In this document: positions 21,009-60,038 of the stretch, in pieces
How the letters are laid out: every line of letters starts with the position of its first letter
How positions within the stretch are numbered: the stretch's first letter is position 1
NCBI GenBank assembly: GCA_019054805.1
Contig: JAHQIY010000001.1
Span: 7,206,501 to 7,270,500 of the forward strand
DNA length: 64,000 nt
Direction of reading: 5' to 3'
From: Brachionus manjavacas
Taxonomy: Eukaryota > Rotifera > Eurotatoria > Ploima > Brachionidae
The notes under the pieces: model-generated
The model's input: the letters and a program-made list of their open reading frames with translations, nothing else
What the model was told of the DNA's origin: nothing
Databases searched by the model: none
Position numbers and translations under genes: made by a program

Positions 21009-24000
21009 ATGAGTCGTCCAGTCATAAAATTGTATCCGCCCGATTCCGTTTTATCTGGCATTTCAGATGAAGTAATCGACAGTAGAAAAATTCCAAATTT
21101 ATTTTTCGAGTTTCGGGACAACATAAAGCTAACGCCCAGTTCCATTTACCAAATAATGATCTCGAACGACCGAGAAATTAAAGGACAATATGAATTCGAG
21201 TACAAAAATTGTAACATGGCAGAAATTAAAATTTTCAACGAAAATCAAATTTTATCCCGGACATCTAAAAATCCCTTCACAGCCAAACTAGTTGATCAGA
21301 ACAACCTTACAATTGCACTCGGACTTTTCTATCGATACAGAACATCATCAAGTGAACGTTCAGTGAACCCCGTTAAATGGGATCCCAATTTTATTCCATC
21401 AGATCACTTAAATTATAATATTAATAAATCAGAGTCCAGATTTGATTCTTTCGTCTCTGCGTCTCCAAAAAGCATCAAATCTCCCAATTTTTTTCCCACT
21501 CCTGATAAATCCATTTCGGACATATCCTTGTATTCCATCGAATCTCTAAAATACTCTAGCTATTCTGCCAAAAACAGGATTAATCATTCAACACCCACTT
21601 CATCTTGTGTATCCTCTTTCCAAAAGTTGTCCAAATTAAGTCCACAAAAAAACGCTCCGAATAAAAGACCAAAAGATTTAGAAAGACCTGCACTAGAGTC
21701 AATTTATCTCACTGACGACTCGAGCGATGATGACGACTACAGCTTTGCCAATCGGACCAATTTAACCAGCCATTTTGATAGTCAGAGTCAAATTTCGTTA
21801 GATTCCAAAGCTTGTATGGAATTGTTTGACAGCATTGAGTCGGTTTCAGAAATTAATTTTCCGACCAAAAAAAAAGAAAAATATTTTGCCTTTACTCTTC
21901 TATTCACTTTGAACAATTCAGATCCCAATTTTTTCAAAATTGCGGATAACATCTACATTTCGAATTTGGACAAAATTTTTGTATCCAACCATGCAGTGCG
22001 AAAATTACGAGAAATGTACAATGTAAGACTTTTGGCAAGTTTTAAGGTTGAAATTCAGGCAACTAAAGCCAAGTTGTTCAAACAGGAATTGGTCGATTTG
22101 CTTTTAAATGGCATCCAGGTGGATATAAATGGCAAAAAAGAAAAATTTTTTTTTATCGGCAATTCGAACAGTGGCATGAGAGAGCGAAACTTTTGGGCAA
22201 TCGATGAGCAATCATTTCAAAAAATTGACTTTCAATCATTTATTTTTAAAATGGGAAATTTCAATAAATTTTACTCAATAGCAAAATTGAGTAAAAGATA
22301 CAGTCAATTTTTTTCTTCAAGCAGACCATCGATAATTTTGGAAAAAGACCAGTTTTATGTGATCAAAGATGAGATAAGTAGTGAAAATTTGTGTTTCACC
22401 GATGGAATTGGTTTGATGCGATCAGAATTATGTGAAAGAATATCAAAAATTTTGCAGCTTGATTATAATTGTATGATTTTTCAAGTGCGCTGTGGTGGAT
22501 TTAAGGGAATGCTTGTAGGATTTCCGGATCGAGTGTTCAACAATGTTCTAAAAGCAAGCAATTTACCACTAAATGGTAAAACAAAAGTACTATTCCGAGA
22601 AAGTCAGCAAAAATTTGACTCAAGCAGCTTAGAATTGAATATAGTATCATGGTCGAGTTTCAACTCTACCCCAGCAAGTCTTAATTCAGAATTTTTGATG
22701 GTTCTGGATGGTCTATCAAAATCGCCAAAGCTTAAAAATTACATTATTTCATTATTCCAGGATAATTTAAACGATTTAGATGAGAGTCTAATTAATCCCC
22801 AAAAAGCAGCTTCTAAACTTTTTAACTCTAATGACATAACTGAATTTGCTCACAAATACAAAATGATACTTCTCGCTTGCCGAAAAAACCTTGCCAAAGA
22901 ACTCGATCCAAAACAGTATAAAATAATTAGAAATTTGTTAATAGAACAAAATTTATTCAGTTTAATTACTAAAAAAAAAATGAATATCCAAATAGAAAAA
23001 TCTCGGCACCTAATCGGCATTTTGGACGAAACCGGCACTTTAAATCAGGATGAAGTATTTGTTTCGTACCGAGATCAGTCAGGTAAAATTCAATTTTTGA
23101 GTGAACAATTTTGCATAGTTGGTCGAAATCCATGCTACGGTCTGAGTGAAATCAGAAAAGTGAGGACTAAATTTGTGCCCGAACTTCAACATCTAGAAAA
23201 TTGTATTGTCTTCCCCAAAAAAGGCACCAGGCCATTGACCAATATTCTGAGCGGAGGCGACTTGGATGGTGACTTTTATTTTGTCTCGTGGGATGAAATT
23301 TTGACCAGCATCGAAAATTCAGGCAAATTAATAGACTACCCTGAGAGTCAGGATTTTTCAAGCTATGTAAAAATAAAAAATTTAAGAAATCAGTTGGCTG
23401 AGTTTTATGCCAAGCAGGTTGTAAACGAGGACGGCATCGGACTCTGGCACTATTACTTGACTTGTCTGTATGACGAGGACCGACAAAACATGCTCGATCA
23501 ACGATATCTGGATGCTGTATTAGAAATTAACAAGTGCATTGATGGAGTTTCTCTTGGAGAGAGACAAATGAAGCGAGTTAAAAAACCAGATTGGTTTTTG
23601 AGTACCCAGGAGCTGAGTGGTCTGGATGGCATAAACAAAGAGGAAAAGTTTAGTGCGCTGGCTGATATTTTGGACCGAAAAAACCTTGATTTAGAAAAAG
23701 TTGAGCAAAATGTCCATAGGTATTCTCTACTTGGTTGCCTAGCTGCTATTTCAATCAAAAAATACTTGAATTTGATTTCCAAAATAGACCAGCCATCATA
23801 TGGACAGTTTTTGAATGAAGACGAAGTTGAAATTTTATCAAAAAATAAAAAAATTAATTTAAATATTTCTAAACAGTCAATTAGACTTGAAAATTTGAAA
23901 ATGATAAGACAAGAATACCGAAAGTTTGTCACAGAAGTTCAAAAACTGGATGGTACAATTAAGAATGATAAGAACCAAGAAATTAAGTTGTTTACAGGCA

Positions 24001-24392
24001 TGTATGAAAAGCAAATAAAAAAAGAAGCAGTCTCAAAAAAAGAGCAACAAAAAATTGGATTAATTGATAAATTTCGGAACTTTGTGGTCAACTTAAAATA
24101 TTCGGATAGAGATTTGAATGATGAAAATTATAGAGATAGTGTTTATTGCCTGGATGGATTTCATTTTAGATCCAGATTGGTCACATTGTATTTGGATTTA
24201 AAAGATGAAGAAATTTTTTATCAAATTCCATGGATGTTTTATGATATTTTATGCTATTTAAAAAATTATTGTAACAATAAAAAATGTCACAAAGTGAGTT
24301 TAGCTTTACCAGATTTAATTCCTTTTAGCTTGGCTACTGAATGCACAAATGTGTTTTCGGCCAAAAAGCTATCAAATTTTAACAAATTTTAA
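21009..24392 (+). CDS. Cellular RNA-dependent RNA polymerase (RdRP-A)
   Basis: Eukaryotic RdRP of the QDE-1/EGO-1/RDR family. Such enzymes copy single-stranded RNA into double-stranded RNA or short antisense RNAs and feed RNA silencing. One uninterrupted frame of 1127 codons. The start is taken as ATG 21009 (MSRPVIKLYPPDS); an in-frame TTG at 20994 is not a likely start. Residues 4-135 form a domain shared with the two other family members in the cluster (LGLFYRYRT at 104-112, NPVKWDPNF at 120-128). A Ser-rich linker with an acidic run (TDDSSDDDDYS) follows to about 275. The polymerase core carries GNSNSGMRERNFWAID, CFTDGIGLMR, LDPKQYKIIR and the catalytic signature DLDGD, with D751, D753 and D755 as expected metal ligands (context LSGGDLDGDFYFVSWD). 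All core motifs are intact and there is no stop or frameshift, so it is likely active. A close paralogue lies at 31419. Confidence 0.93.
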   Translation: MSRPVIKLYPPDSVLSGISDEVIDSRKIPNLFFEFRDNIKLTPSSIYQIMISNDREIKGQYEFEYKNCNMAEIKIFNENQILSRTSKNPFTAKLVDQNNLTIALGLFYRYRTSSSERSVNPVKWDPNFIPSDHLNYNINKSESRFDSFVSASPKSIKSPNFFPTPDKSISDISLYSIESLKYSSYSAKNRINHSTPTSSCVSSFQKLSKLSPQKNAPNKRPKDLERPALESIYLTDDSSDDDDYSFANRTNLTSHFDSQSQISLDSKACMELFDSIESVSEINFPTKKKEKYFAFTLLFTLNNSDPNFFKIADNIYISNLDKIFVSNHAVRKLREMYNVRLLASFKVEIQATKAKLFKQELVDLLLNGIQVDINGKKEKFFFIGNSNSGMRERNFWAIDEQSFQKIDFQSFIFKMGNFNKFYSIAKLSKRYSQFFSSSRPSIILEKDQFYVIKDEISSENLCFTDGIGLMRSELCERISKILQLDYNCMIFQVRCGGFKGMLVGFPDRVFNNVLKASNLPLNGKTKVLFRESQQKFDSSSLELNIVSWSSFNSTPASLNSEFLMVLDGLSKSPKLKNYIISLFQDNLNDLDESLINPQKAASKLFNSNDITEFAHKYKMILLACRKNLAKELDPKQYKIIRNLLIEQNLFSLITKKKMNIQIEKSRHLIGILDETGTLNQDEVFVSYRDQSGKIQFLSEQFCIVGRNPCYGLSEIRKVRTKFVPELQHLENCIVFPKKGTRPLTNILSGGDLDGDFYFVSWDEILTSIENSGKLIDYPESQDFSSYVKIKNLRNQLAEFYAKQVVNEDGIGLWHYYLTCLYDEDRQNMLDQRYLDAVLEINKCIDGVSLGERQMKRVKKPDWFLSTQELSGLDGINKEEKFSALADILDRKNLDLEKVEQNVHRYSLLGCLAAISIKKYLNLISKIDQPSYGQFLNEDEVEILSKNKKINLNISKQSIRLENLKMIRQEYRKFVTEVQKLDGTIKNDKNQEIKLFTGMYEKQIKKEAVSKKEQQKIGLIDKFRNFVVNLKYSDRDLNDENYRDSVYCLDGFHFRSRLVTLYLDLKDEEIFYQIPWMFYDILCYLKNYCNNKKCHKVSLALPDLIPFSLATECTNVFSAKKLSNFNKF

Positions 24393-24649
24393 TAATTTTA
24401 AGTAGAGTTATCATTTTATTATTTTGCATTTTTTTTGTTAATTTTATTTTTCTATTTCTATTGACTGTTTTATTGCCATTTTCACAATTAAATAAAATTT
24501 TATACATTCAATTTTTTAATTCAAAATATAAATTTTTTAGACAGTTTTTTCCAAATCTTAGTCGATTATTAATTTGTGAAGTTAATTTTGCAATGTAAAA
24601 AATTGAATGTTAGGATTTTCTATTTATTTTTTTTAGTTTATTACCTAAA
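24393..24649. other. 3' flank of RdRP-A
   Basis: A short A+T-rich stretch with AATAAA near 24490, which is a plausible polyadenylation signal for RdRP-A. Confidence 0.4.
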
Positions 24650-24651
24650 TA

Positions 24652-25155
24652 TATGTTACCGTAAATTTCAAAAACACGTAATTTACAAATTTACTGGTCT
24701 AATAGTAAAAATGTAAAGCATAAAAAAATGAATAAATTTTAGATATTTACTGATATTTTTATTTAAGTAATTTACTGAAACAAGTTTAGTAAATTACTGA
24801 TATTTTTTGCAACCACATTGATTTGTCATACCTTGACCACCAAGCAAGCTTCTGGAATATATTTCTTACATTTTGTCATCATTTTTTGTGCTTGTTTTTG
24901 TTGATTATCACGTGCATTATTTCTTATACCAACAAAGAATTAGCTTTATCGATAATATCATCAATAGTAAGATCTTCATTTGATGGCTCTGGATTGACCA
25001 TTCTTCAAGTTTTAGTAAATTACTGAAACTAAAAAATTGTTTTAAAAAATTACTAGTAAAAAACAAAACATAATTTTATTCCTATTTGTTTTACATTTTA
25101 ATGGTAGACCAGTAAATTTACAAATTAACGTGTTATAGAAATTTAGTGTTACATA
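24652..25155. mobile_element. TA-flanked inverted-repeat DNA element
   Basis: The ends are about 65-bp imperfect inverted repeats. Left begins TATGTTACCGTAAATTTC; right, complemented, begins TATGTAACACTAAATTTC. Both share AAATTTACTGGTCTA. The element is flanked by TA on each side (24650-24651, 25156-25157), as in the Tc1/mariner group. The interior on the minus strand has a short coding-like stretch (MVNPEPSNEDLTIDDIIDKA) broken by a frameshift. The plus-strand open frame 24823-25026 is a shadow of this. Confidence 0.72.
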
Positions 25156-25317
25156 TACACTAATTGTGTTAATTTACTTAAAAAATATTTGAAATATTTG
25201 TCTGAAATATCTAAATTTCAATAATAATAATAATAAAAAACAAAAATAGAAAACAATAAATCCATTTTAAATTTTCAAAATTTGTTAATTAATTTTTTTC
25301 TTTTTTTTGTTTGTAAA

Positions 25318-25350
25318 TTTGTACCGAGCTAATGCTCCTTCAGAATAAAA
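25318..25350. repeat. Dispersed motif CCGAGCTAATGCTCCTTCAG, copy 1
   Basis: The sequence CGAGCTAATGCYCCTTCAGA, followed by an A-rich tail with AATAAA-like runs, also occurs at 36175-36200 and diverged at about 52630-52655. GAGC-TAAT-GCTC can form a small hairpin. The A-rich downstream parts also align between copies 1 and 2. Perhaps a retrotransposon 3' end. Confidence 0.55.
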
Positions 25351-26170
25351 ATGTGTTTAAAAAAAATAGAAATAAAGTTAAATAAGATTAAATAAAAATG
25401 AATAAAAAGGGATAAAAATGATAAGGTTTAGTAATGAAATTATTGTTTAAGAAATTTTGCATTTGCTTGAGGAAAAACTTTGAGTAAATCTGGTATATCA
25501 TAAGCAAAATATTTATTTTAAGATAATTTTAATGGAAGTTTTTATAACAGATGTGTTCAACTTAGACCTAGTTGCAGAGTTTTGATCAAACTTATTCCCA
25601 TTTAATACTTGATTTTTCTCGTAGGGTTTTTATAACTTTACTAAAATTTAATCTTCAAGAATGCCTTGAAAAATTAAAACATTTTCGGACGCCATTTTCA
25701 TCTTATGTTTAGCCAGCAAACTTCAAAATTTTGTTTTAGAAAAGCTTTTTAATAAAGATAAATAAGATGAGAGAGTCGTCCGCGAAGAGAAGGGAATACT
25801 ACCAATCTTTTAGTCATTTTGGTTAAATTATTGATGAAAAGCTTCAAATAAAGGAAATCCTTTTAAATTTTTTTTCATAGTGATTTTTATTGGGCTGATA
25901 AACAATAGGCAAAATCTGTACGGTTTTATTTTAGCTTTTGAAATATTTCGGTATAAATTGTAAATATGTTCCATGTAGATATCTGTAATTCATTTTTTTA
26001 ATTTTTATTATCTACAACAGAGACTAATTGAATAGCTTTGTAAGAAATTTTGATTCAGGCAGAAAATTTGCGTTTATTTTAGATAAAAGATTAATGAATA
26101 TTATTTCGAAATTTTTTTAAGAAAAATTTATTCGTATAGATTAATTTTTAATTTTTTTTTAAAATTGTTA

Positions 26171-27348
26171 TGGTAAAACTGTCTTAATGTTTCTAATGTG
26201 AATTCGGTGACGAAATTTGAAATTTAGTTACATCTCTTCTGTTTTTAATTTTTTTTTCTACAAGCCTTATGTTCTTATAGATCTTGAGGAGAGGAATTTG
26301 AATAAGCATAAATAAAAATCTTTAACTTTTTTTGAGTCTTTTTTTTTTAGATAAAGTTATTTTTCGGCCAATTCGGTGAATATCGGTCAAATTAGTTATT
26401 CGGTTTGTCCACTTTTTCCTCTTTCATCTTAGATGCTAGCTCTAACCTAATTAGATCATTGAATTCCCAATATCTTTATTAGTAATAAAAAATTTTTTAA
26501 GAATTTTTAGTTGTCCTTGGACGTGTCCAGCTAAATGTGTTATTTTTAGGGTGTAATTAGGTAATTAAGGTTTCACCTAAATACCCAAAAATCTCACCTA
26601 ATAAACCAAAAAATCATCCTGTTTAACATAATTAGACTGAAAGGATAAAAATGATCACAATGACGCCATTTTTTATGAAAAATTTAAATTTTTTTTCTAC
26701 TTTTTTTACAAAAATAATTTGATTTTATTTGATTAAAATATTCATTCTGTATTATCAAAAATCGTCAATATATTAAAAAAATGAATCAGAACAAACAAAA
26801 AGAAGTTAAAAAAAAAGTATTCGATGGAAGATCTTGATAACGCAAAAAAGATGTTTTTGAAAAAAAATAAACACTACTCAAGCTTCAAATTTATACAACA
26901 TTCCGAGACAGATCTTATTAACTAATCTTTTTAACTAAAAAAAAATCAAACAAAATTTATTTTGAATTCGTTAATAATTCGTCTAAATTTTTTTCTAAAA
27001 AGTTATGTTGTGGCGTATCTTTAAAAGAATAATAATAAAGAATATTTTAAATATTTATATTTTTAAAAATAACAAAAAATCCTTTTTTTAGTTCTTATTG
27101 GGCTAACTGGGTGAATTCGGTGAATATCCTGAAAAAGAGCTTAGTTCTCGAGCTAAATATTTACAAAATCAGGGGTAACTGGGTTAACCGAATTCACCCA
27201 ATAAGGCTTCACCCAATTAACCGCAGGAGGTAAAGGGGTGACTAGAAAAAACTGGTCTAATTCGGTGAGCATTTTTGGAGTTTTTGAATAAAATGAGTGC
27301 CAAATATGCAATAAAAAAAATAGGTCACCCGGTTAGGCTCATTTACCA
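26171..27348. mobile_element. Pogo/Tc1-like non-autonomous DNA transposon, copy 1
   Basis: Flanked by TA (26169-26170 and 27349-27350). Inverted termini: left TGGTAAAACTGTCTTAA, right complement TGGTAAATGAGCCTAACC. About 1.18 kb. The right two thirds, from about 26572, are almost identical to copy 2 (42660-43439), while the left third is clearly diverged. It contains the start of a reading frame (MNQNKQKEVKKK at 26781) with a 1-bp insertion relative to copy 2 that breaks it. An internal inverted repeat lies around GGTGAATTCGGT / ACCGAATTCACC (27119-27130 and 27190-27201). Confidence 0.8.
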
Positions 27349-27350
27349 TA

Positions 27351-28319
27351 TTAATACAAAAAATTGATTGGAAAAAATATCCCATGTTATTTGGAATGGG
27401 TTTTAGTCCTCTATCACTTTTTTTTTTAAATTTGAAATGGTTCTGAGTAATAAAACTCTTATCTGATTATATCCTGATTGCACTTTTTATAAAAGAGTGA
27501 AATTATTTTCAAGCAAAATATGTGAAAATAAAAATTATCGATTCACTTGGTTTACCTGTACAATTTTTTCTTATATTTCCACTCAAGTGTCAATAAATAA
27601 GAAAAATAAAGAAAATAAAAAGCCTCCTAAATTGCAGTTTACTATAAAAAGCAATAAAAGAAACCTGGAACTTATTCCATTTATATTTCTTTATAAAAAT
27701 ACTTAATACATTCCTGAAAAATTAAAATGAATTTTCCAATAATAATAATTCAAGATCAAATTTTTGAAAAATTTGATGATTTTTTACTAGTTTTCTATGA
27801 TTATTTAAGCAATCTTTTTATTTGTAGACAACATATAGTGGCGAAAAATTAAAATGTGTCCATTTGAAATTTTATGCTAATTTTGTTAAAATATCTTGAA
27901 TCGAATTTAAAAAATAGCAATTTCAAAAGAAACCCAAAATAATCAAAAATCTGACTGGAAACGATATAATTTTTTTGAAAATCTAAAAAATTAAAAAATA
28001 ACGATTTAAATTTGTTAACCAAAAATCAAAAAATTTAAATTTCTTTATATAAGCTCAGGCATGTTGTTTTAGATTAATAGTCTGATATTTAATCTAATAT
28101 TTACAAGCCAAGATATTAAAATGCTATTTGTGACTAATTTATAAAGGTACAAGATCTATTTATGAATTAAAAACCATCTAATTCTATTTAAAAAAAAATC
28201 ATTTTGAACAAATAAGACCATTTTGAGAACTTAATACTTTTAATGATATTAAAATTTAACAAAGTTTACCTCATTAATGTAGATTAGAGAAAAAAATTGT
28301 AATTTAAAAGTTAAAAAAA
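27351..28319. other. Intergenic region upstream of the N-domain protein
   Basis: About 1 kb. The open frame 27497-27706 is Lys/Asn-rich with no motif and is not supported as a gene. Nothing else seen. Confidence 0.45.
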
Positions 28320-29006
28320 ATGAATTCTGTGATAAAACTTTATTCTCCTCAATCAGAATTGAGTTATGTTGCGGACGAAATACTTGATATCAGAAGCAAT
28401 ATAAAAAACCTTAAAATTGAGTTGAGAGATAAAATATCGCTTAATGTAGGGGAAACCTATGAGTTGAGAATAAATCGAGGAGACTTGTTGCGCGCAAAAT
28501 TTTTGTTTATTTATCTCGACTTCAGCTTGATTCGAATTCCTATCAATCATGACGATGAACTAAAATTACAGAGCCTAAAGTCCAAAAAGCCATTTCAGAT
28601 AAAACTTTTGGATGAAAATAACAATTGTCTTGCCAAGGGTATGTTTTATAGATACAAAACTCGGTGTAGATCCACCAGATCTACGAATCCAAAAGAATGG
28701 GATTCGAATTTTTTTCCCGAAAAGCACAAAACTTATGAACAAGAAATTTTTGCAGATAGTTGCTCAGATTTTACCATTATAAGACAAATTTCAAATGAGC
28801 ATGGATCACTTGAGAGCAAGAAGCATCTTGTTGGCATTTGTAATGAACAAAAAATGCTTGTTCAAACCAAAGCTATTTTGGATAAAAATTGCAGAAAATT
28901 TTGTTTTGATTCGGAAAATTTTCAAGAATTTCTAAGTTTTTTAATTAAATTCACAATTCTTTATATTTTATTTGATTTTATTAAACTAGCGTTATCACTT
29001 TTATAA
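28320..29006 (+). CDS. Stand-alone RdRP N-terminal-domain protein with hydrophobic tail
   Basis: 228 codons from ATG 28320. Residues 4-140 match the N-terminal domain of the flanking RdRPs: VIKLYSPQSELSYVADEILD at the start, KGMFYRYKT at 106-114, NPKEWDSNFFPEKH at 123-136. Nothing of the polymerase core is present here or before the next gene. After the shared domain comes about 60 residues of unshared sequence, then a strongly hydrophobic C-terminus (about 204-228, rich in Phe, Ile and Leu) that could be a tail-anchor membrane helix. Either it is a truncated RdRP copy whose frame happened to run on into A+T-rich DNA (which readily yields Phe/Leu/Ile codons), or a gene kept as a free N-domain, for example as a partner or competitor of the full polymerases. 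The frame is clean and the domain is diverged but intact, so decay is not obvious. Confidence 0.65.
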   Translation: MNSVIKLYSPQSELSYVADEILDIRSNIKNLKIELRDKISLNVGETYELRINRGDLLRAKFLFIYLDFSLIRIPINHDDELKLQSLKSKKPFQIKLLDENNNCLAKGMFYRYKTRCRSTRSTNPKEWDSNFFPEKHKTYEQEIFADSCSDFTIIRQISNEHGSLESKKHLVGICNEQKMLVQTKAILDKNCRKFCFDSENFQEFLSFLIKFTILYILFDFIKLALSLL

Positions 29007-29805
29007 AGCATTTATCAAAAGATTTTATTTGTTTTTTTTTTCAGAATAAAAATATTTGATTACAAAATTTTATAAGTTTAAGACCATCTTGACTTAAATA
29101 TTAGGATGGTAATTTTGAAAAAAATTAGTTTCCCATCCTATAAGTCTATGAATAGATTTTTTTACAATCCAAATGAACAATTTATTCTAATAAAGAATTA
29201 TTTTAAAAATTGCACATAATTTTTAATTACTTTTAATAAAGATTTTAATTAGACATAGTTTAATTAAAGTATATTTTTTGGATTTATTAAAAAAGCTGTC
29301 TGAATCAATATTATTTATATTAACTCAATTGATTAATTATTTTTTCTTTAAAAAAAAGAAGCAGCGAAAAATTCTTCCGTATAAGTGAATTTTTGAAAAA
29401 GAATTATTTAAAAATTACGTCAAAGATGAAATTTAATATAATCTTTTTAAATCTCACCTTGTCTTATTAGCTATAGGCTGACTAAATGACAAATTCTAAT
29501 AGCCTTAAAGCCATAAATACCAAGGATCAAAATTAAAAAAAAAAGTTTTGACTTGATTATTTTAATCATTTTAACGTGATCAATTATATTTGTTAAGTCA
29601 AGATTCGATTTATTTAGCTTAAGAGTAAACCTTATCGGCTTGACATTAAAATTATGCCTTGTGATCTAATTTAAATGATTAAATGTTAAGGAATTTTCTT
29701 TTTACGATTGTATTAAAAACTGTAAATAATTTTGAAATTTCTTTTAAAATAGTTTTTTTTTAATTTGGTACTTGTTCATTTTTGTTCAAAAATAATATTT
29801 TTAAG
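29007..29805. other. Intergenic within the RdRP cluster
   Basis: About 0.8 kb of A+T-rich DNA. No trace of polymerase-core sequence, which argues against the preceding gene being the first exon of a longer RdRP ending here. Confidence 0.5.
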
Positions 29806-30336
29806 ATGTCTTCAACCGCAGGTTTGTGGAGATTTAACTTCCGAAATGTTCCGATGAATGAGCATGATCTGGAAAGTTATCAAAACAAGCTTTTAGAAAT
29901 TCGCGAAAAGTACAGAAAAAGGGTTGATAACGTAACTGGCTGTGCATTTTATGAAGGAATTCTGCCCCCAAAAGATAACATATTTGCTTCGTTCACATAC
30001 GAATGTAAGCGTCATCATCCACCGTGTTCAGGCTGGTACTTAATCTGGAATCCCAATTTGGATATTAACAAGTCAAAACTTAATGGGTCTCTACACAATC
30101 ACTGCACTTTGTGGCAATATAAATCAGTGAGCAAAAAGATTCAGCTCGAACTCGTTCACGATTTTGGCAAGTATTTTGACATGTTCGATGATGATGATAC
30201 TCATCCGTATTTTATTGATCAGTTTTACAACTTGAGATATGGTTTTAAAACTGATGAAGATGAAATTCCAGACTACGCATCTTTTGATTTAGATGAAGCA
30301 CATTTAAATGTGGCTGAGACTAGTAATCCTTATTGA
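29806..30336 (+). CDS. Orphan 176-aa acidic protein with Cys/His clusters, in the RdRP cluster
   Basis: Not recognised. The start is ATG 29806 (MSSTAGLWRFNFRNVP); an upstream in-frame TTG was ignored. Codon use is clearly coding-like, unlike the surrounding A+T-rich DNA. Features: aromatic-rich N-terminus (LWRFNFRNV), a short helix-forming charged stretch (LLEIREKYRKRVD), CAFYEGILPP, then two Cys/His groups, CKRHHPPCSGWYLIW near residue 70 and HNHCTLW near 98. An acidic middle (FDMFDDDDTHPYF) and acidic tail (DEDEIPDYASFDLDEAH) follow. The Cys/His spacing might bind a metal, but it fits no zinc finger I know. No signal peptide or membrane helix. It lies on the same strand, between the N-domain protein and RdRP-B. 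A link to RNA silencing is suggested only by position. Confidence 0.7.
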   Translation: MSSTAGLWRFNFRNVPMNEHDLESYQNKLLEIREKYRKRVDNVTGCAFYEGILPPKDNIFASFTYECKRHHPPCSGWYLIWNPNLDINKSKLNGSLHNHCTLWQYKSVSKKIQLELVHDFGKYFDMFDDDDTHPYFIDQFYNLRYGFKTDEDEIPDYASFDLDEAHLNVAETSNPY

Positions 30337-31418
30337 ATGTTAAAGATTTTTTAAATTGACACTTTTTTTAATAAATAATTTAACCTAAGAAAACTATATT
30401 TTAAATATTAATGTTTTTAAACAATGAAGCCTTGAATTATTGCTTTAATGATTCAATTTATTAAAAAAATTTAAAATTCTTCGTTTAATAGAGTATTTGA
30501 AATAATAAAAACTTCATGGCAAAAAATATTGTTATAGATAATTAGATTATTAATAGTATTTTTTGAGTGAAATTTAAGATAAAAGGGCGAGAAATTTTTT
30601 TAAAACGATTTTACCCCTAGAAATTCACATGAACCCGATTTAAATAGTTTGAATGAAATGAAGAATTTTATTAGATTTAATTATCCATGAATAAAAAAGA
30701 TGGTGTTTTTTTTTTAATTTCACTCTTTTGCATCAGAGAAATTATTTAAACAGCAATTGCACCAACGAAATAATTTTTAATAATTTTTCATTTGAATTTT
30801 TTTAAAACGAATTTTCTAAAAATTAATATAGTGGTAAAAAGAAAATTTTTTTCTAATTATTATTACACCTAATGGAACATAAGGAAACGACCCTTAGATC
30901 AAGATATCCATTTTCTACTAAATGAAGTTTGACAATTCAAATCAAAATACATATATTTAATTATGCTTAAAAAAACAGTATTAGAAGCTACACGTAGTTC
31001 TCACTTCTAAGATTCATTTTAATATTTTGAATTATTAAATGTTCATTAAATTTACCAAGTTGATTTTTAGGTTCAATGACTTTTTTAAATATTTTAATTA
31101 AATTTTCTGTTTTAATTTTTTTTCAATATTCATTTTAGAAAAAGCCAGCACTCGTTTTTACCCTCACAAAGCAACTAAAGAACTACGAAGCTTTACTTTC
31201 ACTTTTACTTTTACTAATTTTTTAAATTTTTATCTTATTTTTTGCAGTTTCTCCGATTTGTTAGATAATATTTTAAGAATTAAAAAATCAAGCTCTTGGT
31301 TACGAAATAAATTATGATAAATCTGAGCTTTTTTAATAAGATTTTTTATCTCTTAAAAATTGATTATATTATATTTTAGAATTATTTTAAGCTTTTTTTT
31401 TTAGACATTTTGATATAA
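30337..31418. other. Intergenic region upstream of RdRP-B
   Basis: About 1.1 kb. Around 31140-31260 there is a less A+T-rich stretch (CCAGCACTCG, CCCTCACAAAGC) followed by polypyrimidine-AG sites, so it may hold a spliced 5' UTR of RdRP-B. Not certain. Confidence 0.4.
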
Positions 31419-34400
31419 ATGGAAAAGCCTTCGATAAAGTTATATCCAATTGATTCTGAATTGTCAAAAATATCAGATCTAATATTGGATAAATACAAAA
31501 GTTTTCTTTTGTTTGAAACCAGAGATTGTACCATATCAGATAATGAAGAATACTCGATATCTTTAGAAAGAAAAGATGAATTTATAATTGAAAATGCTAA
31601 AATTGTAAAAATTGATTGGAATAAATTCCAAGTTGGTGATCAAGATCCTTTGACAAAAAATGCTAGAAATCCATTTAAAGTGGTACTAAAAGACTCATCT
31701 AAAATTATTGCCAGTGGTCTTTTCTATCGGTACCGTACTGATCCGGAAAAATCACCATCTAAATGGGATAAAAATTTTAATCCTGAGAGGCATAAAAATT
31801 ATAAAGGTACAGAAAACTTAATTAATTTCAGCTCTTCATCCTTAAATAATGTTATAGAACCAAAATATAAAATATCCAATTCCACCACAGATCACACTAG
31901 ACTGAAAAAAGAAAACATTTCTCCGAAATCAGAATCATTAAATTCGCCAGATGATTCAATCATCGTAGATAAAACAAATGAAGGAAAAAATAAAAATCAC
32001 AAAATTTCGTTTATTAGAGGTATCAACTTAGAATCAAAATTTCACAATTCACCCGATTCATCAAAAAAGCGAATAAAGGAAGAACTAATTGCTCCAAAAT
32101 CAGAGTTAAGAGACATTTCTACTGAACCGATGATCATTGATATGAAAGATAGTGAATATAATTTTCATTCATTTATATTAAACATTAGATACGAATCTAA
32201 TTCATTAAGCTATGAAACAAATATTACAGAAAAACTAAATATTACCAATCGAGCTATTCGAATACTTAAGGAATATTTTCACGTAAGGTTAATTGCTCAT
32301 TTTAAAATAAATTTTAGCGTCGGAAAAACAGATAAAAATAATGAATTGAAAAATTTTTTAATTGAAATCTTAAGAAACGGAATACGCGTGAAACTAGATG
32401 GAAAAAAGGAAATTTTTTTTAGTTACATCGGAAGCTCTAATAGTGGACGAAAAGAGCGAAATTTTTGGGCTATTGACAAAGAAAGCTGTGACAAACTGAA
32501 TTTTAATGATTTCCTTAATTTTTTTGGAAATTTTTCTCAATTTTCCCAGATCCAAAAACTGAACAAACGCTATAGTTTGCTCTATTCCAGTAGTGTGCCT
32601 GTGTTTAAACTTAACCGAACAGAGTACAAAATTGTCAAAGATTTTGAAAAAAATGACTATTGCTTTACTGATGGGGTTGGCATTATTCGCCAAAAAGCTT
32701 GTGAAGAAATCTCAAAAAAATTGAACCTTGACTATACTAGTTATATTTTTCAGATAAGAATTGGCGGATTTAAAGGAGTTTTGACAGGTTTTTCTGATAG
32801 CATAATTAATAAGATATGCCCGGGAGTGAATAGTCAAGTTAAAATTTTGTTCAGAAAAACTCAAGAAAAATTTGAATCAAAAGATTTTGAATTAAATATT
32901 GTTTCATGGGCACCAAATGTTTCTGTTCCAGCCAATTTAAATTCAGAGATCCTAATGATTTTAGATGGATTGTGTGGTGAAAAATTCAAAGAATACATTT
33001 TGAGAATATTTCAAGATTATCTTGATGAAATAGAAAAAAGTTTAATAGATCCAAAAAAAGCTCTGGCCAGATTGTTCAATTCAGATGATGTGAACGAATT
33101 TACGCACAAATACAAAATGATTTTGCTAGCTTGTAGGCGAAATTTGCTCCAAGAACTAGATCCAAAACAGTACAAAATAATCCGTGAGTTAATTATTGAA
33201 CAAGGCTTATATAACATAATTACAAAAAGAACTTTTAATATTAAAATTGAAAAATCAAGATTTTTTATTGGCGTGATTGATGAGACTGATCAATTGAAAG
33301 AAGATGAGGTGTTTGTTTCCTTTCGCAATAGCTTGGGAAACATAGAGTATCTGGATGGAAATTTTGTTGTAGTTTGTCGGGTGCCTTGTTATAGCGTGAC
33401 AGAGGCTCGCAGAGTTCGAACAAAATATGTAGATGACTTATCTCATTTAGAAAATTGCGTAGTATTTCCCAAAAAAGGACCAAGGCCAATGACTGATATT
33501 TTAAGCGGTGGTGATTTAGATGGAGACCTTTATTTTGTCTCATGGGATGATCATCTTACTGATTTTCAGAATTCAAACACTATATTAGAATATCCAACTA
33601 ATCCTAGTTCTTCAACAAAAATAGATGAGAAAAATTTGCGAAATCAGCTGGTTGAAGTTTATGCTAGCGATGTGTTATATGAAAACAAAACAGGACTTTG
33701 GCATTACTTTCTAGTTTGTTCATATGATCAAGATCGGAAAAACATGCTTAAAGAGAATTATCTATTAGGTGTTACAGAGATAAATAAATGCATTGATGGC
33801 ATCAAATCATCAGAGTCTATTTCCTTAGTTAAAAAGCCACTTTGGTACATTTCTTCTAATGATGTAGAAAATGTTGAAAAAAAATCTAAACAAGATAAAT
33901 TTAATTGTTTAAAAGAAATTATCCAGAAAAAAAATTTTGAATTTTCCGAAATTAATTCAAAAAAGAGCTCATTGCTAGAATGTTTAGTTGTTAGAGCTAT
34001 GAAGAAATATACTGATATTGTAGAAAAAGCTAACGATTCGATAAGAGGTGAATTTTTGAGCGATAAAGAACTAAATTTATTAGAAGAAAACGATTTTATT
34101 ATAGACTTAACAGAAAGTAAAATTGAAAGAGAAAATTTAGTGGAAATAAAAAAAGAATATCTAAAATATATTGAAAAGGTAAAAAAAATAGAAACCGATA
34201 AAATTCAAAAGGATAGATGTGACTTGTTCAAAGGAATGTATGAGAAACAAGTGTCAAAAAGCTATAGCTCAGAAAAAGATAAACTTAAAGCAAAATTTAC
34301 TGGAGAATTCAGGAATTTCGTAGTTAATTTGAAATATTTTAACGAAGAAATCAAAGACAAAAACATGAAAAAAAGTGTTTATTCAATTAATGGTCTCTAT

Positions 34401-34631
34401 TTAAGGTCGAGAATTATAAACCTCTATAAGACTTTTAAAAATGAAGAAAAATTGTATCAAATACCATGGATATTCTATGATGTTTTGTGTTTAATGAAAA
34501 ATTTTTGCAACGACAAACTTTCACCAAGAGTATCACAACTTTTTCCAACTATGATACCGTTCAGCATGTCTGCCGAATTCACTAATACGTTTTCTACCAA
34601 AAAATTGTCCAATTTTAACTATCTTCCTTAA
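31419..34631 (+). CDS. Cellular RNA-dependent RNA polymerase (RdRP-B)
   Basis: Paralogue of RdRP-A, same strand, 7 kb downstream of its end. One frame of 1070 codons from ATG 31419 (MEKPSIKLYPIDSELS). The N-terminal shared domain spans residues 4-125 (SGLFYRYRT at 99-107, SPSKWDKNF at 112-120). The linker is shorter and less Ser-rich than in A. The core has IGSSNSGRKERNFWAID, CFTDGVGIIR, LDPKQYKIIR and SGGDLDGDLYFVSWD; D699, D701 and D703 are the predicted metal-binding aspartates. Both polymerases end in the same motif (FSTKKLSNFN in B, FSAKKLSNFN in A), so neither is truncated. Identity to A is highest around the catalytic motif and low in the linker. Codon use is more A+T-rich than in A, suggesting weaker expression or different age. 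The intact motifs predict activity. Confidence 0.93.
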   Translation: MEKPSIKLYPIDSELSKISDLILDKYKSFLLFETRDCTISDNEEYSISLERKDEFIIENAKIVKIDWNKFQVGDQDPLTKNARNPFKVVLKDSSKIIASGLFYRYRTDPEKSPSKWDKNFNPERHKNYKGTENLINFSSSSLNNVIEPKYKISNSTTDHTRLKKENISPKSESLNSPDDSIIVDKTNEGKNKNHKISFIRGINLESKFHNSPDSSKKRIKEELIAPKSELRDISTEPMIIDMKDSEYNFHSFILNIRYESNSLSYETNITEKLNITNRAIRILKEYFHVRLIAHFKINFSVGKTDKNNELKNFLIEILRNGIRVKLDGKKEIFFSYIGSSNSGRKERNFWAIDKESCDKLNFNDFLNFFGNFSQFSQIQKLNKRYSLLYSSSVPVFKLNRTEYKIVKDFEKNDYCFTDGVGIIRQKACEEISKKLNLDYTSYIFQIRIGGFKGVLTGFSDSIINKICPGVNSQVKILFRKTQEKFESKDFELNIVSWAPNVSVPANLNSEILMILDGLCGEKFKEYILRIFQDYLDEIEKSLIDPKKALARLFNSDDVNEFTHKYKMILLACRRNLLQELDPKQYKIIRELIIEQGLYNIITKRTFNIKIEKSRFFIGVIDETDQLKEDEVFVSFRNSLGNIEYLDGNFVVVCRVPCYSVTEARRVRTKYVDDLSHLENCVVFPKKGPRPMTDILSGGDLDGDLYFVSWDDHLTDFQNSNTILEYPTNPSSSTKIDEKNLRNQLVEVYASDVLYENKTGLWHYFLVCSYDQDRKNMLKENYLLGVTEINKCIDGIKSSESISLVKKPLWYISSNDVENVEKKSKQDKFNCLKEIIQKKNFEFSEINSKKSSLLECLVVRAMKKYTDIVEKANDSIRGEFLSDKELNLLEENDFIIDLTESKIERENLVEIKKEYLKYIEKVKKIETDKIQKDRCDLFKGMYEKQVSKSYSSEKDKLKAKFTGEFRNFVVNLKYFNEEIKDKNMKKSVYSINGLYLRSRIINLYKTFKNEEKLYQIPWIFYDVLCLMKNFCNDKLSPRVSQLFPTMIPFSMSAEFTNTFSTKKLSNFNYLP

Positions 34632-35058
34632 ATCAAAAAGCCAATTAAACAAATTTTAATTAAGCATTTTAAATATTAAAAAAAAATGGCCAACCTTATT
34701 TAATCGGATTTGAGGATTACTAACACATAATTGTTGAGGAATATATAACAAAAATTAATTCAAATGAAAAACTAATATTTTAATTTTAGAAATAGAATGC
34801 ATAATTACCATTTGGTTAGTTAAAACCCTTAATTTCATTTTGATATTTAATTTTATGAAAATTCAAGCATAGTTACGCATATATATTAAATTTTTGTGCC
34901 AACGAAACAAAAATGCCTGATTATTTATTTTGTATTTTCAGTGGTGCTACGATAATTGAATTTTACGTAAATTTTTCGTTAATCTGGTAACAATGAGTTA
35001 AGAGAATTTTTTAGTTTTTTTTAACTTATTTTTGAATTATTTATTATTAATAAATAAA
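34632..35058. other. 3' flank of RdRP-B
   Basis: A+T-rich, no feature supported. Confidence 0.4.
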
Positions 35059-35060
35059 TA

Positions 35061-35305
35061 CAGTGCCGGAAATTAACTTGTCACATCATATCATATGATA
35101 TCATTTGATATTAGATGATATCAGCTAATATCAGGGAAAAAAATTATTTACATATTTTTACAAATAGAAATTCAAATTCAAATTCACCTAATATTATCTG
35201 ATATCAAATGATGAAAGCTGATATCAGCTGATATGAGGAAAGTTTAAAAAAATGATATTAAATGAAATCAGATGATATGATGTGACCAGTTAATTTCCGG
35301 TACTG
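35061..35305. mobile_element. 245-bp palindromic MITE, TA target site
   Basis: Left end CAGTGCCGGAAATTAACTTG; right end complement CAGTACCGGAAATTAACTGG. Both run on into TCACATCATATCAT, so most of the element can fold on itself. Flanked by TA on both sides (35059-35060, 35306-35307), as expected for Tc1/mariner-type MITEs. The interior is rich in the sub-repeat TGATATCA/GATATCAGCT. Confidence 0.85.
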
Positions 35306-35307
35306 TA

Positions 35308-38259
35308 TATGGTTTTTTTTTTTTTTAATTTATAAATTCATTCAATTAAAAAAATTAAAAATTAAAAAAAAATACAAAAATTTCTTCAAAATCGAGATTT
35401 TTTTGGCGATTTTAATTTTTTGGGAAAATTCTGGTAAATTTGCCTATACAATTATCGTTGTACCACTGTATTTTATATATTTAGATTTTACTTTTTTAAG
35501 AAAATCTGAAAGTGGAAAAAAGGCGTAATTGAATTGAGCAGACAAAGTATTGAAATATTTTAAGTTTCCTATTTACTATTCAGAAAAATATAATTAATTC
35601 AAAGTGGTTAACCACAGAACGATAAAATGAAGGTTGACCGTAGTAGTATTCTTTTTTAGATTGTTCAATCTTAGACTTTTTAAATTAATTTAAATTTTTT
35701 TGTAATCGATTTTCGAATAAAATTTTCAAAAAATGTATTTTTTAACAGGTTGTCGTAATTTAAAGACTCAAATTTTTTTCTTGATTCAAACTAAACTACT
35801 AAACCGAAATTTTTTTAAATTACTCTAAAAGTCTTCTTTGCGCTTCATAACTGTCGCGACATTTTTGGCTTCTATTGGGGACCAAGATTAGATAAACATA
35901 AAAAAATCATACAAACTCAAGCACTAAAATAAAATTTTTAATAAGATTTAATTTTAAATATTAATTATTTAATTTTTTTATTTAAAAAATATTGAAGAGT
36001 TAAAAAACCAGATATCCATAAAAATCATGAAAATTTAGTTTTAAAAAAAAACTCATTAATAAATGGTTTCATTTTTTGTGTTTGAATTACCAAATGTATC
36101 CATTGTTGAAATAACATTGAAAAAGTGCGATGTTTCCAAAATTTTTTATTTATTAGTTTATTTGTTTATCTGTCCCGAGCTAATGCCCCTTCAGAATAAA
36201 AAAATTTGAAAAAATTTAAAAATAAACTTAAATAAGATAAGGAAAAAAAAAAGATAAATAATTCATTTCGATTAAAATTTATCAATCGTTGAAAAACTTG
36301 GTCTAGTCGGTTAGGTGAACCATGGTTTACCTATTACGCGATCAATTCTTGTTCTCAGGTTTTCTGAACTATTAATCACCTAACTTATTTGTTCACGTAA
36401 AGAGACAAAATAGAATTAGGTGACCAAATTTCAAATTATGTGAATAAATTGAATAAAACTATTTAATAAATAAACAATTTAAGTTAAAAATTTTTTGTTT
36501 TTTTTGTAAATTTGAAGAAGCTTTAGAAATAGCATTTTGATCTGGTTTTGATCTGATCTGGTTGACCTGGTGTTGACATAGATTCATCTAAAAATCTCAT
36601 AATATTACCTAGTCCTAGTGATGAAATCGAATATGCATATTCGAACCGATATTTGAATAAGTAGTTTTTCGAACGGATATCAGCTTCGAATATAATATTT
36701 GAATATAAAAAAATTTTAAAAATATATTTAAATATTATTTCATTTTAATTTTAAAATTGAATCTCTAAAACATTCGAATTAAAATTTGACAAAAAAAAAT
36801 TTTGAATATAAAACCGAATATAATAAATATTTGATTTTCTATTTGAAAAAATTAAATAATTAAAAAAATAATTGAAAAACAAAAAATTTAAAGAAAAATT
36901 TGAATAAAAAAATTTTCAAAAAGTAAATTGAGCATGAATTTGAATAATTTTTATGTGTTTTTTAGATCTTTATGATTTAATTTAAGCTTTTAAAAAAAAA
37001 ATAATGTGTAATTCACAAACTTAAAATTTTATATATGTTTAAATAAATTCAATTTTTATGTGTATTTTCTCTTTTTAATAAAATATTTTTCTTCTATGTA
37101 TTAGTCACATTATTTATGGTTTTTAATCTCCTTTCTTCTGTTGGTGGTCAGCAGTATTTAAGTATTACTGTTTAAGAAATAATGGAAGGTACAAGTTCTT
37201 TTTTTCCATTCGTAAGCATTATTTGCTTGAGATAAACTCCAAATGTTAAATTTGAGAAATTAGAAAAATTTTAAATTTTAAAATTTACCCCAAAAATCAT
37301 GTCTTTGAAGGATTCAGACCCTTAACTGATGAAAAACATATTCAAATTAGATATTTTATAAAAATCTAAGCATACTATACAAGTCAGAAAAATAGAAAAA
37401 GCTAATCCAATGTGTTACTCTTTTAAATAGAGAGTTGCAAGACATAACTTAATTTAAAGTAGTTATTAGATTATTTTTTATTAAAGCTTTTTTTTTTAAT
37501 TTAACCAAAAAACTTTCAGGTTCTTGAATGATTTATCGATTTGATTTATATTGTTCATTTTAAATCAATTTAATAAATAATTTGTGAGTCTGTTTTTGTA
37601 AATCAGCAGTCTTGAATCTAAGGCATCGTGAATTAGAGTACAAAAAATAAAAACAAAAAAAGCTTTAAATCGGACTTACCAAAACATTTTCTGCAAATTG
37701 TAGCAACTGATTAATTCTATGTAGCACCAATATAATTATTTATTTATTTAAAATATAATTTAGGCGGAGACTTAGTCCTTCCTTTCAGCCACTTGATTAA
37801 ATTTTGAAACCTTAAAAAAATTTAAAAAAAAATTTTATGATAGATGTTAAGTAATTTTGAATTAAGTTTTCAATAATTTTTAAGTTTAAGTAGTGGTATC
37901 GGTTACAGAACATGTTTTGTTCATTTCGATTTAAAGCTATGATTTTTTTTTTTTAATTTTGTTTTTTGTTTCAAAATTTACAATGACTTAATCTAATTAC
38001 TTTATTATAAAATCATTATTACAAAACAAAACCAAAAACATCATTTAGAATTGATTCTTTTTAAGGATATTAATTTCCGATTAAATGATTCTTTTAGAAT
38101 TCACCAAAAAAAATTTAAATTTTAATTATCATTTTAAATCATATAATCAGCGAAATTTTAATTAAATTAATGAATGAATATAAAATAAAGCTACTCATAT
38201 TAAGGTTTAAGAAGTTATTTTAAAAAAAAAGATCCCAGACGTTTCTCTGTTAATTTGTG
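35308..38259. other. Intergenic, with a possible truncated hAT-like remnant
   Basis: About 3 kb with no supported gene. Positions 36607-36680 (TAGTGATGAAATCGAATATG, then repeated TTCGAA/ATTCGAA words) resemble a hAT terminus, but no matching right end was found. The dispersed GAGCTAATGCCCCTTCAG motif lies at 36177-36194. Confidence 0.4.
36171..36200. repeat. Dispersed motif GAGCTAATGCCCCTTCAG, copy 2
   Basis: Same motif and A-rich tail as at 25318-25350; see that entry. Confidence 0.5.
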
Positions 38260-42258: not shown

Positions 42259-43439
42259 TGGTAACACAGCCTAAATGTATTTAATGTAAATTCGGTGACG
42301 TAATTTGAAAAACCGAAATATATCAGTCGTTTAATTTTTTTTTTTAACAACCCACATATTCATGTAAATCTTGAAGAGAGGAATCCAAGTATATATATGA
42401 AATATTTATAAAAAAATTTTAAACCTTTTTTTTTTTAATTCAAAGTTTTTTTTTGGCTAATTCGGTAGAATTTTTCAAATTAGTAATTATGTTTGACAAT
42501 TTTTGATCCGATGACGGAACAAGTTTGAACTGACCTTATTTGCTTATCGTTTTCAGCGGGTCTTGATTAATAAAAAATAATTTTACTAGAATTTTAAGAT
42601 ATCCGATGGGTCCGTTGTCTAATGTTGTTATTTTTTATGGGTTAAGAGGTTAATGAGGTATCACCTCAATACCCAAAAATCTCACCTAATAAACCAAAAA
42701 ATCATCCTGTTTAACATAATTAGACTGAAAAGATAAAAATGATCACAATGACGCCATTTTTTATGAAAAATTTAAATTTTTTTTCTACTTTTTTTACAAA
42801 AATAATTTGATTTTATTTGATTAAAATATTCATTCTGTATTATCAAATAATCGTCAATATATTATAAAAATGAATCAGAACAAACAAAAAGAAGTTAAAA
42901 AAAAATATTCGATGGAAGATCTTGATAACGCAAAAAAGATGTTTTTGAAAAAAAATAAACACTACTCAAGCTTCAAATTTATACAACATTCCGAGACAGA
43001 TCTTATTAACTAATCTTTTTAACTAAAAAAAAATCAAACATAAAATTTATTTTGAATTCGTTAATAATTCGTCTAAATTTTTTTCTAAAAAGTTATGTTG
43101 TGGCGTATCTTTAAAAGAATAATAATAAAGAATATTTTAAATATTTATATTTTTAAAAATAACAAAAAATCCTTTTTTTAATTCTTATTGGGCTAACTGG
43201 GTGAATTCGGTGAATATCCTGAAAAAGAGCTTAGTTCTCGAGCTAAATATTTACAAAATCAGGGGGAACTGGGTTAACCGAATTCACCCAATAAGGCTTC
43301 ACCCAATTAACCGCAGTAGGTAAAGGGGTGACTAGAAAAAACTGGTCTAATTCGGTGAGCATTTTTGGAGTTTTTGAATAAAATGAGTGCCAAATATGCA
43401 ATAAAAAAAAATAGGTCACCCGGTTAGGCTCATTTACCA
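42259..43439. mobile_element. Pogo/Tc1-like non-autonomous DNA transposon, copy 2
   Basis: Flanked by TA (42257-42258 and 43440-43441). Left end TGGTAACACAGCCTAAATG; right end complement TGGTAAATGAGCCTAACC. From 42660 to the right end it matches copy 1 (26572-27348) almost base for base; from 42259 to about 42655 only a diverged similarity remains. Carries an intact 47-codon frame, listed separately. Confidence 0.82.
42870..43013 (+). CDS. 47-codon ORF in the pogo-like element, possible remnant of a DNA-binding N-terminus
   Basis: Starts MNQNKQKEVKKKYSMEDLDN and ends in SETDLIN. The pattern basic tail, then K-Y-S-x-E-D-L-x-N-A resembles the beginning of the psq-type helix-turn-helix of pogo/Tigger transposases, but only its first helix. 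In copy 1 the same frame is broken by one extra base. Probably the first exon or a remnant of a lost transposase; a free function is unproven. Confidence 0.35.
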   Translation: MNQNKQKEVKKKYSMEDLDNAKKMFLKKNKHYSSFKFIQHSETDLIN

Positions 43440-44092
43440 TAAGCATTTTAAGTAAATTTAAAATCTAAAATGAAGCATCTGAAATTATTTTTTACAAAGT
43501 TTTAGAAAAGTTTTCATTAAAATCCAGGATTTTGATTAATAAAGTTAAACTTAAAAAAAGTAAATTTTGTAAATTTAGTAACCTCTTGTCTTATGAATTT
43601 TTTAAAGAACAAAAGCTTAATCCTTCATGATTTTTAGACTATAAGGACAATCAAAAAAAAATTAAATTAGTTTTACCAAAATATTTAAATCATCTTAATT
43701 TACACAAAATTTTATTTTAATCAAATTTCAAAATTTCAAAATATTAAAAATTTTTCAATGCATTCAAATTACTTTTACCAATCTTTTATAATAAAAAAAG
43801 ATTATTAACAGGGTAGTTTTTTTAAGGCCTCAAAGGTATAAAATCCCGAGGTCTCATCGAATTTAGTCCGGAAAAAAATAATAAATAAATAAAAAATAAC
43901 AGTTTTAAACGTAATAACATTCTTCTCTTTTTAGAATATTTTTTGATAAGCGTTAAATAAAAGATAAGTTTTTGCACAAGTTTTTCAATTTCTCACAAGT
44001 CGCGTGTTTTTTGCCTTCTTTTTTGTTAAAAATCAAAATCTATTGGGTCCAAAGGTTTACTTTTTTCACTTTCATTCTCTGAAGTAAATAAA

Positions 44093-58832: not shown

Positions 58833-60038
58833 GGCACTAAATTTCTACTTACCAAATAATTATCAAATTCTTCACCAAAATAAATCACCAAAAAAATATT
58901 AAAAAATGAACCAAATAAATATATTTTTCACCAAAACAATTTTATTTCACCAAAAAAAATATTATTTTTTCACCAAATTTATGAATTGTTTTAAACCAAA
59001 AAAATATTTATTTCAACCAAAATAATAGTTTTTATCACCAATAATAATACAAATCAAACCAAAAATAATTACTGAATTATCAAGGCTTGTTTTGCCTTTG
59101 CAGGACTTCCAGGTTTTCTTTTTTCGCCGATAGGAATATTTTTCGCTGATAATGGTATTTCACATTCAGGAATATTAAGAATTTTTGATATACCAATTAA
59201 GCGCTTGCAAATGTTATTCTTGATGTACCATCTACATGAACATTTTCCGTTCTTGCTTAAGTCATTGAGGATTTGAATTGGTTTACTTATTCCATATTCG
59301 AATAATTCAATGATCGCTTCTTGGGTGCTTTTGGGTAATTTAGATGTTATTCATCGCCATGTTAGTGTTGATTTTCATTTATGCATAGGACCACCTTGTT
59401 GTCATCAATCTTTATTAAAATGTAGGCTTGCATCTGACACTTGGCTACATTTAAAATACTGTGGCTACATTTAAAATAATGTTTTGCTCCATCGCTGGTA
59501 TAATGCTTGCGTTGTTTTCTCCAATTGCCGATTTTATTGAGATCTTCCAAAGCTTCATCAAATAATTGATAATTGTTGTGCACGTTGTATACTTGAACTT
59601 TGCTTCTTTTCCTTTTTCTGTGCAATGTTTCAGATTCAATATCAGAATCTACATCATCACTAGTATCTTGATAAACAAGTACGTTTTCACTTGATGACGA
59701 TACTGTGTTATCTTGAATTACTGCTGTTGTCATCGTATCGATCGAGTTTCAATTGATTTTTTAAGGATTTGCGGTAAAATAACATAAAAATACTATTTAT
59801 AATATTTTTGGTGAATAAAAAATTGAAATGGTGAAGTATAAATTAATTTGGTTTAGAAATCTATTTTGAATTGATGGTTTGATTTGCACGGGTAATTGTG
59901 GTTTTTTGGTGTCAATTAAGAATAAATTTGCGACAAAATACACCAATTAGGTGTTAAATTTTGGTAATCGAGTTTCGCCTTAGATTATATTTTTTTGGTG
60001 AATGAAAAAAATATTACTGGTGAACGATAATTGTATGC
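58833..60038. mobile_element. Internally deleted MULE (Mutator-like) DNA transposon
   Basis: Flanked by a perfect 10-bp direct repeat CATTTTAGTC (58823-58832 and 60039-60048); Mutator elements make 9-10 bp duplications. The ends are imperfect inverted repeats, GGCACTAAATTTCTACTTACC and, complemented, GCATACAATTATCGTTCACC. They lead into long sub-terminal regions full of CACCAAA (left) and TTTGGTG (right). The interior encodes minus-strand remnants of a MULE protein, listed separately. Confidence 0.82.
59069..59733 (-). pseudogene. MULE protein remnant: FLYWCH-like N-terminus and SWIM-like C-terminus, catalytic core missing
   Basis: ATG at 59733 opens a 123-codon frame with an acidic N-terminus, a basic patch (HRKRKRSKVQV), and then a FLYWCH/WRKY-like zinc-binding module (NWRKQRKHYTSDGAKHYFKC through INENQH). 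After a stop and frame change near 59360 the sequence continues STQEAIIELFEYGISKPIQI, the usual next segment of MULE proteins. It then jumps directly to CSCRWYIKNNICKRLIGI, a SWIM-type C-x-C ... C-[KH] finger, and ends in EKRKPGSPAKAKQALIIQ with a stop at 59071-59069. The DDE transposase domain that should lie between is deleted, so it cannot move itself. Confidence 0.72.

Follow-up and report, generated by a model that had tools for sequence, protein, structure and literature searches.

Cellular RdRPs share a fold of two double-psi barrels, and the solved members of the family include RDR2 and QDE-1. Fusions of a helicase with an RdRP are known from Dictyostelium, peronosporomycete oomycetes, Hydra and Nematostella (PMC4791657). 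In rotifers, the mean number of RdRP copies has been given as 2.5 in monogononts and 38.9 in bdelloids, and many of the bdelloid RdRPs were suggested by Nowell et al. (2021) to be a retained old lineage (PMC7943196). Multiple RdRP copies have also been reported in Brachionus koreanus (PMC12256650), and the available parts of a further source (PMC13312535) contain nothing on rotifer RdRPs. Amplification of silencing cannot be assumed for animal RdRPs, since those of amphioxus are reported to take no part in RNAi (PMC6396948) and secondary siRNAs are reported as not detected in Nematostella (PMC12768352).

The locus described here lies in a window, meaning the whole 64-kb stretch of DNA that was analysed, whose mean GC content is approximately 27%; the main GC peak of B. 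asplanchnoidis is near 25% (PMC8447722). Judged by this GC content and by the size of the assembly, the host is probably a monogonont rotifer, perhaps a Brachionus. The genome searches covered the 114.17-Mb assembly of 61 contigs, in which Wnt matches at three places identify the genome as that of an animal. Long intronless frames for DNA cytosine methylases were observed on two contigs (two frames on C21 and one on C40), and these contigs may be bacterial.

An RdRP pair, an N-domain gene and an orphan frame

The four plus-strand ATG frames of the first-pass annotation were confirmed at the positions given there. RdRP A (21009-24392, plus strand) is predicted to encode 1127 aa, comprising an N-domain (residues ~1-140), a linker, an RdRP core (Pfam 327-867) with the motif SGGDLDGD, and a C-terminal part that is common to A and B. 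RdRP B (31419-34631, plus strand; 1070 aa) has the same architecture, and its SGGDLDGD is also intact. Between the two are located N (28320-29006, plus strand; 228 aa), which consists of a stand-alone N-domain (residues ~1-140) and an 88-residue tail, and O (29806-30336, plus strand), a 176-aa orphan. Chance frame lengths were estimated by simulating the 64-kb window 100 times with an order-2 Markov model, and the longest stop-to-stop frame of each simulation had a median of 122 codons and a maximum of 195. A, B and N (232 codons stop to stop for N) exceed these lengths, and the frame of O, with 190 codons stop to stop, is not above chance by length alone.

No other genes had been noted between the four, and indeed no stop-to-stop frame of at least 80 aa lies wholly between them (an antisense frame of 85 aa overlaps the start of B), but two dispersed repeats take up about one third of the 3.9 kb that separate A from N. 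One of these is an element with inverted ends at approximately 24650-25157, whose ends are 74% alike over 139 alignment columns; the other, of about 820 bases (26534-27350), occurs at at least 39 other places in the genome, and its second copy in the window (42621-43441) is 97% alike. A block of 26 bases was also observed downstream of both A (25324-25351) and B (36175-36202). It was rejected as a common control element of the two genes, because with up to 2 mismatches it occurs at 1709 places genome-wide (808 + 901; the reversed control gave 0) and is thus a dispersed repeat. AT-rich tails flank it in the 12 places looked at, and the block possibly represents the terminus of a short retroposon. 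Additionally, an inverted repeat with 63-base arms that are 86% complementary, containing TGATATCA-like units, lies downstream of B at 35049-35317.

Both A and B are full cellular RdRPs, as had been proposed. In the Pfam search they matched PF05183 with 306 bits (E 6e-91) and 266 bits (E 9e-79), respectively, far over the curated cut-off of 23.8 bits, and the DxDGD catalytic motif is intact in each. The same search gave no helicase match for either protein, so that they are not helicase-RdRP fusions. When A was used as the query in a PDB search, it matched RDR2 with E values of 5e-33 to 4e-32 and QDE-1-type chains with E values of 3e-22 to 2e-20. A and B are 43% identical over 1145 alignment columns. 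The same codon is used at 0.46 of their conserved residues (478 cases), compared with 0.466 expected at synonymous saturation, and first, second and third codon positions are identical in fractions of 0.56, 0.72 and 0.42. Saturated synonymous sites in a conserved protein show that the duplication is old and that both proteins have been held by selection.

N matches A and B at their N-termini and is without the RdRP core, in agreement with its description as a protein with the N-terminal domain only. Over the first ~140 residues it is 41-42% identical to A and 33-35% identical to B. In a single-protein search of the 114-Mb genome, this N-domain of about 140 residues was found at three places only, in A, B and N. 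The same codon was found at 0.345 of the compared residues of A and N, compared with 0.372 expected at saturation (55 cases), and identity at the three codon positions over the N-domain was 0.50, 0.63 and 0.35. For B and N the values were 0.587 compared with 0.486 expected, which is above saturation in a small sample of 46 cases, and 0.45, 0.62 and 0.40. The duplications of the N-domain are also old, and the proteins have been held by selection.

The tail of N was compared to the remaining parts of the RdRPs. Residues 164-201 show a weak in-frame resemblance to residues 662-701 in the core of A, with an E value of 1.5 in the window. Against A, shuffled versions of residues 141-202 scored at least as high in 20 of 1000 cases, and shuffled versions of the whole tail in 78 of 1000; the corresponding numbers for asparagine synthetase, an unrelated control, were 90 and 154. 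The same comparison gave no support for a match of the tail to B (204 and 281 of 1000) or to the third RdRP of the genome described below (291 and 579 of 1000). These values hint, at most, at N being an RdRP copy with an internal deletion, and the match of its tail to A is tentative. Moreover, the last ~25 residues of N are hydrophobic, with a 19-residue hydropathy of up to 1.93 at residues 207-225, and the corresponding maxima are 1.22 in A, 1.12 in B and 0.44 in O. This end could possibly serve as a membrane anchor.

Codon usage was scored with three training sets and 77 intergenic control frames. The own frame of N was the best of its six in all three trainings and exceeded all 77 controls in one of them only, and the own frame of O exceeded all 77 controls in each training. 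However, the third antisense frame of O also exceeded all the controls, so that base composition explains part of the score of O. It is important to mention that B and a GPCR gene, both of which are clearly real, scored low as well, and the test therefore discriminates poorly.

The first-pass annotation regarded O as an orphan, and we found no second copy in the genome and no family match; no Pfam match was obtained at a limit of E 10, and the PDB matches were at chance level only (best E 0.85). A FLYWCH-like zinc finger, suspected by eye from the spacing of Cys and His, was rejected for O, owing to the lack of a Pfam match, the absence of O among the matches listed in the genome-wide search (150 of 173 candidates scored) and a non-significant alignment with the protein encoded at 59365-59748 of the window. 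The genome itself holds at least 148 FLYWCH matches among the 150 scored candidates, several of them clustered on C18 near 1.10-1.13 Mb. O is tied to the RdRPs by position, and until shown otherwise we treat it as an unrelated neighbour. What stands of the proposed four-gene cluster is thus one old RdRP pair plus an N-domain gene, O having no tie beyond its position.

A third RdRP and the RdRP complement of the genome

RdRPs were found at three places in the genome, namely A, B and G000:C4:5310420-5312081. The cluster had been called expanded, but three RdRPs are near the reported monogonont mean of 2.5 (PMC7943196) and represent an ordinary copy number. The lack of introns, which had been proposed as a distinguishing mark, was not borne out either. 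The Argonaute match on C8 lies within an open frame of 1157 aa, the Dicer match on C3 within one of 1872 aa, and the third RdRP within one of 2143 aa that is preceded by one inferred intron of 50 bases; frames of this length in other genes mean that intron-free frames do not mark the cluster.

The third RdRP gene (G000:C4:5307202-5314646) is predicted to encode one protein of 2464 aa across the inferred intron. Its order is a RIG-I C-terminal-like front, a Dicer/RIG-I-type DExD/H helicase, an RdRP domain (583 bits in Pfam) with the motif SGSDLDGD, and a final part of 676 residues. In the PDB search it matched RDR2 with an E value of 9e-134 and QDE-1 with an E value of 4e-15. The resemblance of the front (residues 5-128) to the RIG-I C-terminal domain is below the Pfam cut-off (E 0.002); searched alone, this domain had no support in the PDB, and its alignment was not significant with the genome's other RIG-I-like domain. 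The latter is found at the usual end of a separate RLR-type helicase (C4:3611504-3614803; match at C4:3613004). For the last 676 residues Pfam and the PDB gave no convincing relative, and a nucleotidyltransferase that had been suspected by eye at the C-terminal end was rejected for lack of support in both.

The relation of A and B to the third RdRP was analysed in an unrooted tree of six sequences (A, B, the third RdRP, two RDR2 and one QDE-1). In this small tree with long branches the third RdRP joins RDR2 with a support of 99.7/98, and A and B stand apart with a support of 92.8/88. With the same six sequences, a tree joining A and B with the third RdRP alone was rejected (AU p 0.0096), as was a tree in which QDE-1 and the third RdRP group together (AU p 0.027). 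It is thus improbable that A and B were copied recently from the third RdRP, and their separation from it could be due to long-branch attraction.

Possible roles of the locus

The identifications of the RdRPs and of the N-domain made in the first-pass annotation hold, and the RNA-silencing module proposed there is upheld in part. The genome contains 20 Piwi matches, which group into 8 places, and a Dicer in which platform, dimerisation and PAZ domains were matched. A role in RNA silencing is plausible in an animal genome with Argonautes, Dicer and an RLR-type helicase; O, however, has no link to such a module, and the argument from introns fails. For A and B themselves, the analysis establishes at the level of sequence their identity, an intact motif, an old age, conservation of the protein and the genome counts found.

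In our best explanation, to which we give a probability of roughly 0.45, A and B form an old tandem pair of RdRPs that serve in silencing; their N-domain docks, and N acts on the enzymes as a competitor or a tether. A and B would form a lineage distinct from the RDR2-like third RdRP, with catalytic motifs intact, and would copy target transcripts into complementary RNA. This RNA would feed the Argonautes and Dicer, either for amplification of silencing or for defence against transposons or viruses, presumably by way of secondary small RNAs. The N-domain shared by A and B would serve for docking. N would be a duplicate that has retained this domain, carries a hydrophobic tail at its end and may compete with A and B or tether them. 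A stronger form, in which a separate ancient A/B lineage with its own docking domain and N as a membrane-tailed regulator together make the locus a self-controlled cassette for RNA amplification, appears improbable to us. The weak match of the tail of N to the core of A makes both the best explanation and this stronger form less likely.

If real, the same match is what an internal deletion would leave, and it would favour a simpler account in which A and B are plain tandem duplicates, N is a functionless third copy that was truncated or internally deleted, O is unrelated, and there is no module. The lack of an RdRP core in N, its weak codon score and the missing link of O to RNA silencing are also consistent with this account, which we regard as a real possibility, somewhat short of the best explanation. 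On the other hand, the frame of N has stayed intact over 228 codons while synonymous sites between A and N look saturated, and the second codon positions of N are 62-63% identical to those of A and B. A and B may instead be RdRPs that are no longer in RNA silencing and have another RNA-copying role, for which amphioxus provides a reported precedent (PMC6396948); the Argonautes, Dicer and RLR-type helicase present in the genome speak against it, and we consider it unlikely. An origin of the pair as an endogenised or mobile RdRP cassette, derived from a virus or another mobile element, would agree with the dispersed repeats within and beside the locus and with the distance of A and B from the RDR2-like RdRP. 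Yet viral contigs searched with A/B, O, N-domain and RdRP-core queries, using peptide patterns as a coarse filter, contained no relative, no further copies were found in the genome, and four viral RdRP families are reported to have no hits in bdelloid proteomes (Nowell et al. 2021, PMC7943196), all of which makes this origin very improbable.

An old selected A/B pair together with one different RdRP, three genes found in all, gives a small set for testing RdRP-dependent small RNAs, and the stand-alone N-domain copy would give a handle on how A and B are recruited or restrained.

Comparison with known RdRPs

RDR2 and QDE-1 share the family and the DxDGD motif with A and B. For A, the E values are 5e-33 to 4e-32 with RDR2 and 3e-22 to 2e-20 with QDE-1-type chains, whereas for the third RdRP they are 9e-134 with RDR2 and 4e-15 with QDE-1. 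Compared with the known helicase-RdRP fusions (PMC4791657), A and B differ in having no helicase. The third RdRP has the helicase-RdRP order of these fusions and differs from them in the additional RIG-I C-terminal-like domain (below cut-off) in front; in searches of open-licence papers, no front domain of the RIG-I type on such a fusion came up. The third RdRP may represent a new variant of these fusions.

Among rotifers, the closest described systems are the divergent clades RDR I and RDR II of bdelloids and the RdRPs of monogononts (Nowell et al. 2021, PMC7943196), where several RdRPs occur, as here. Most of the bdelloid copies are placed outside the main metazoan clades (PMC7943196). Set beside the bdelloid RdRPs by description, the position of A and B apart from the third RdRP fits the retained old lineage suggested by Nowell et al. 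The available text of that study (PMC7943196), to which our RdRPs can be likened by description only, does not describe the N-domain or a stand-alone N-domain gene. The locus of A, B and N is a real but modest extension of what is known in rotifers.
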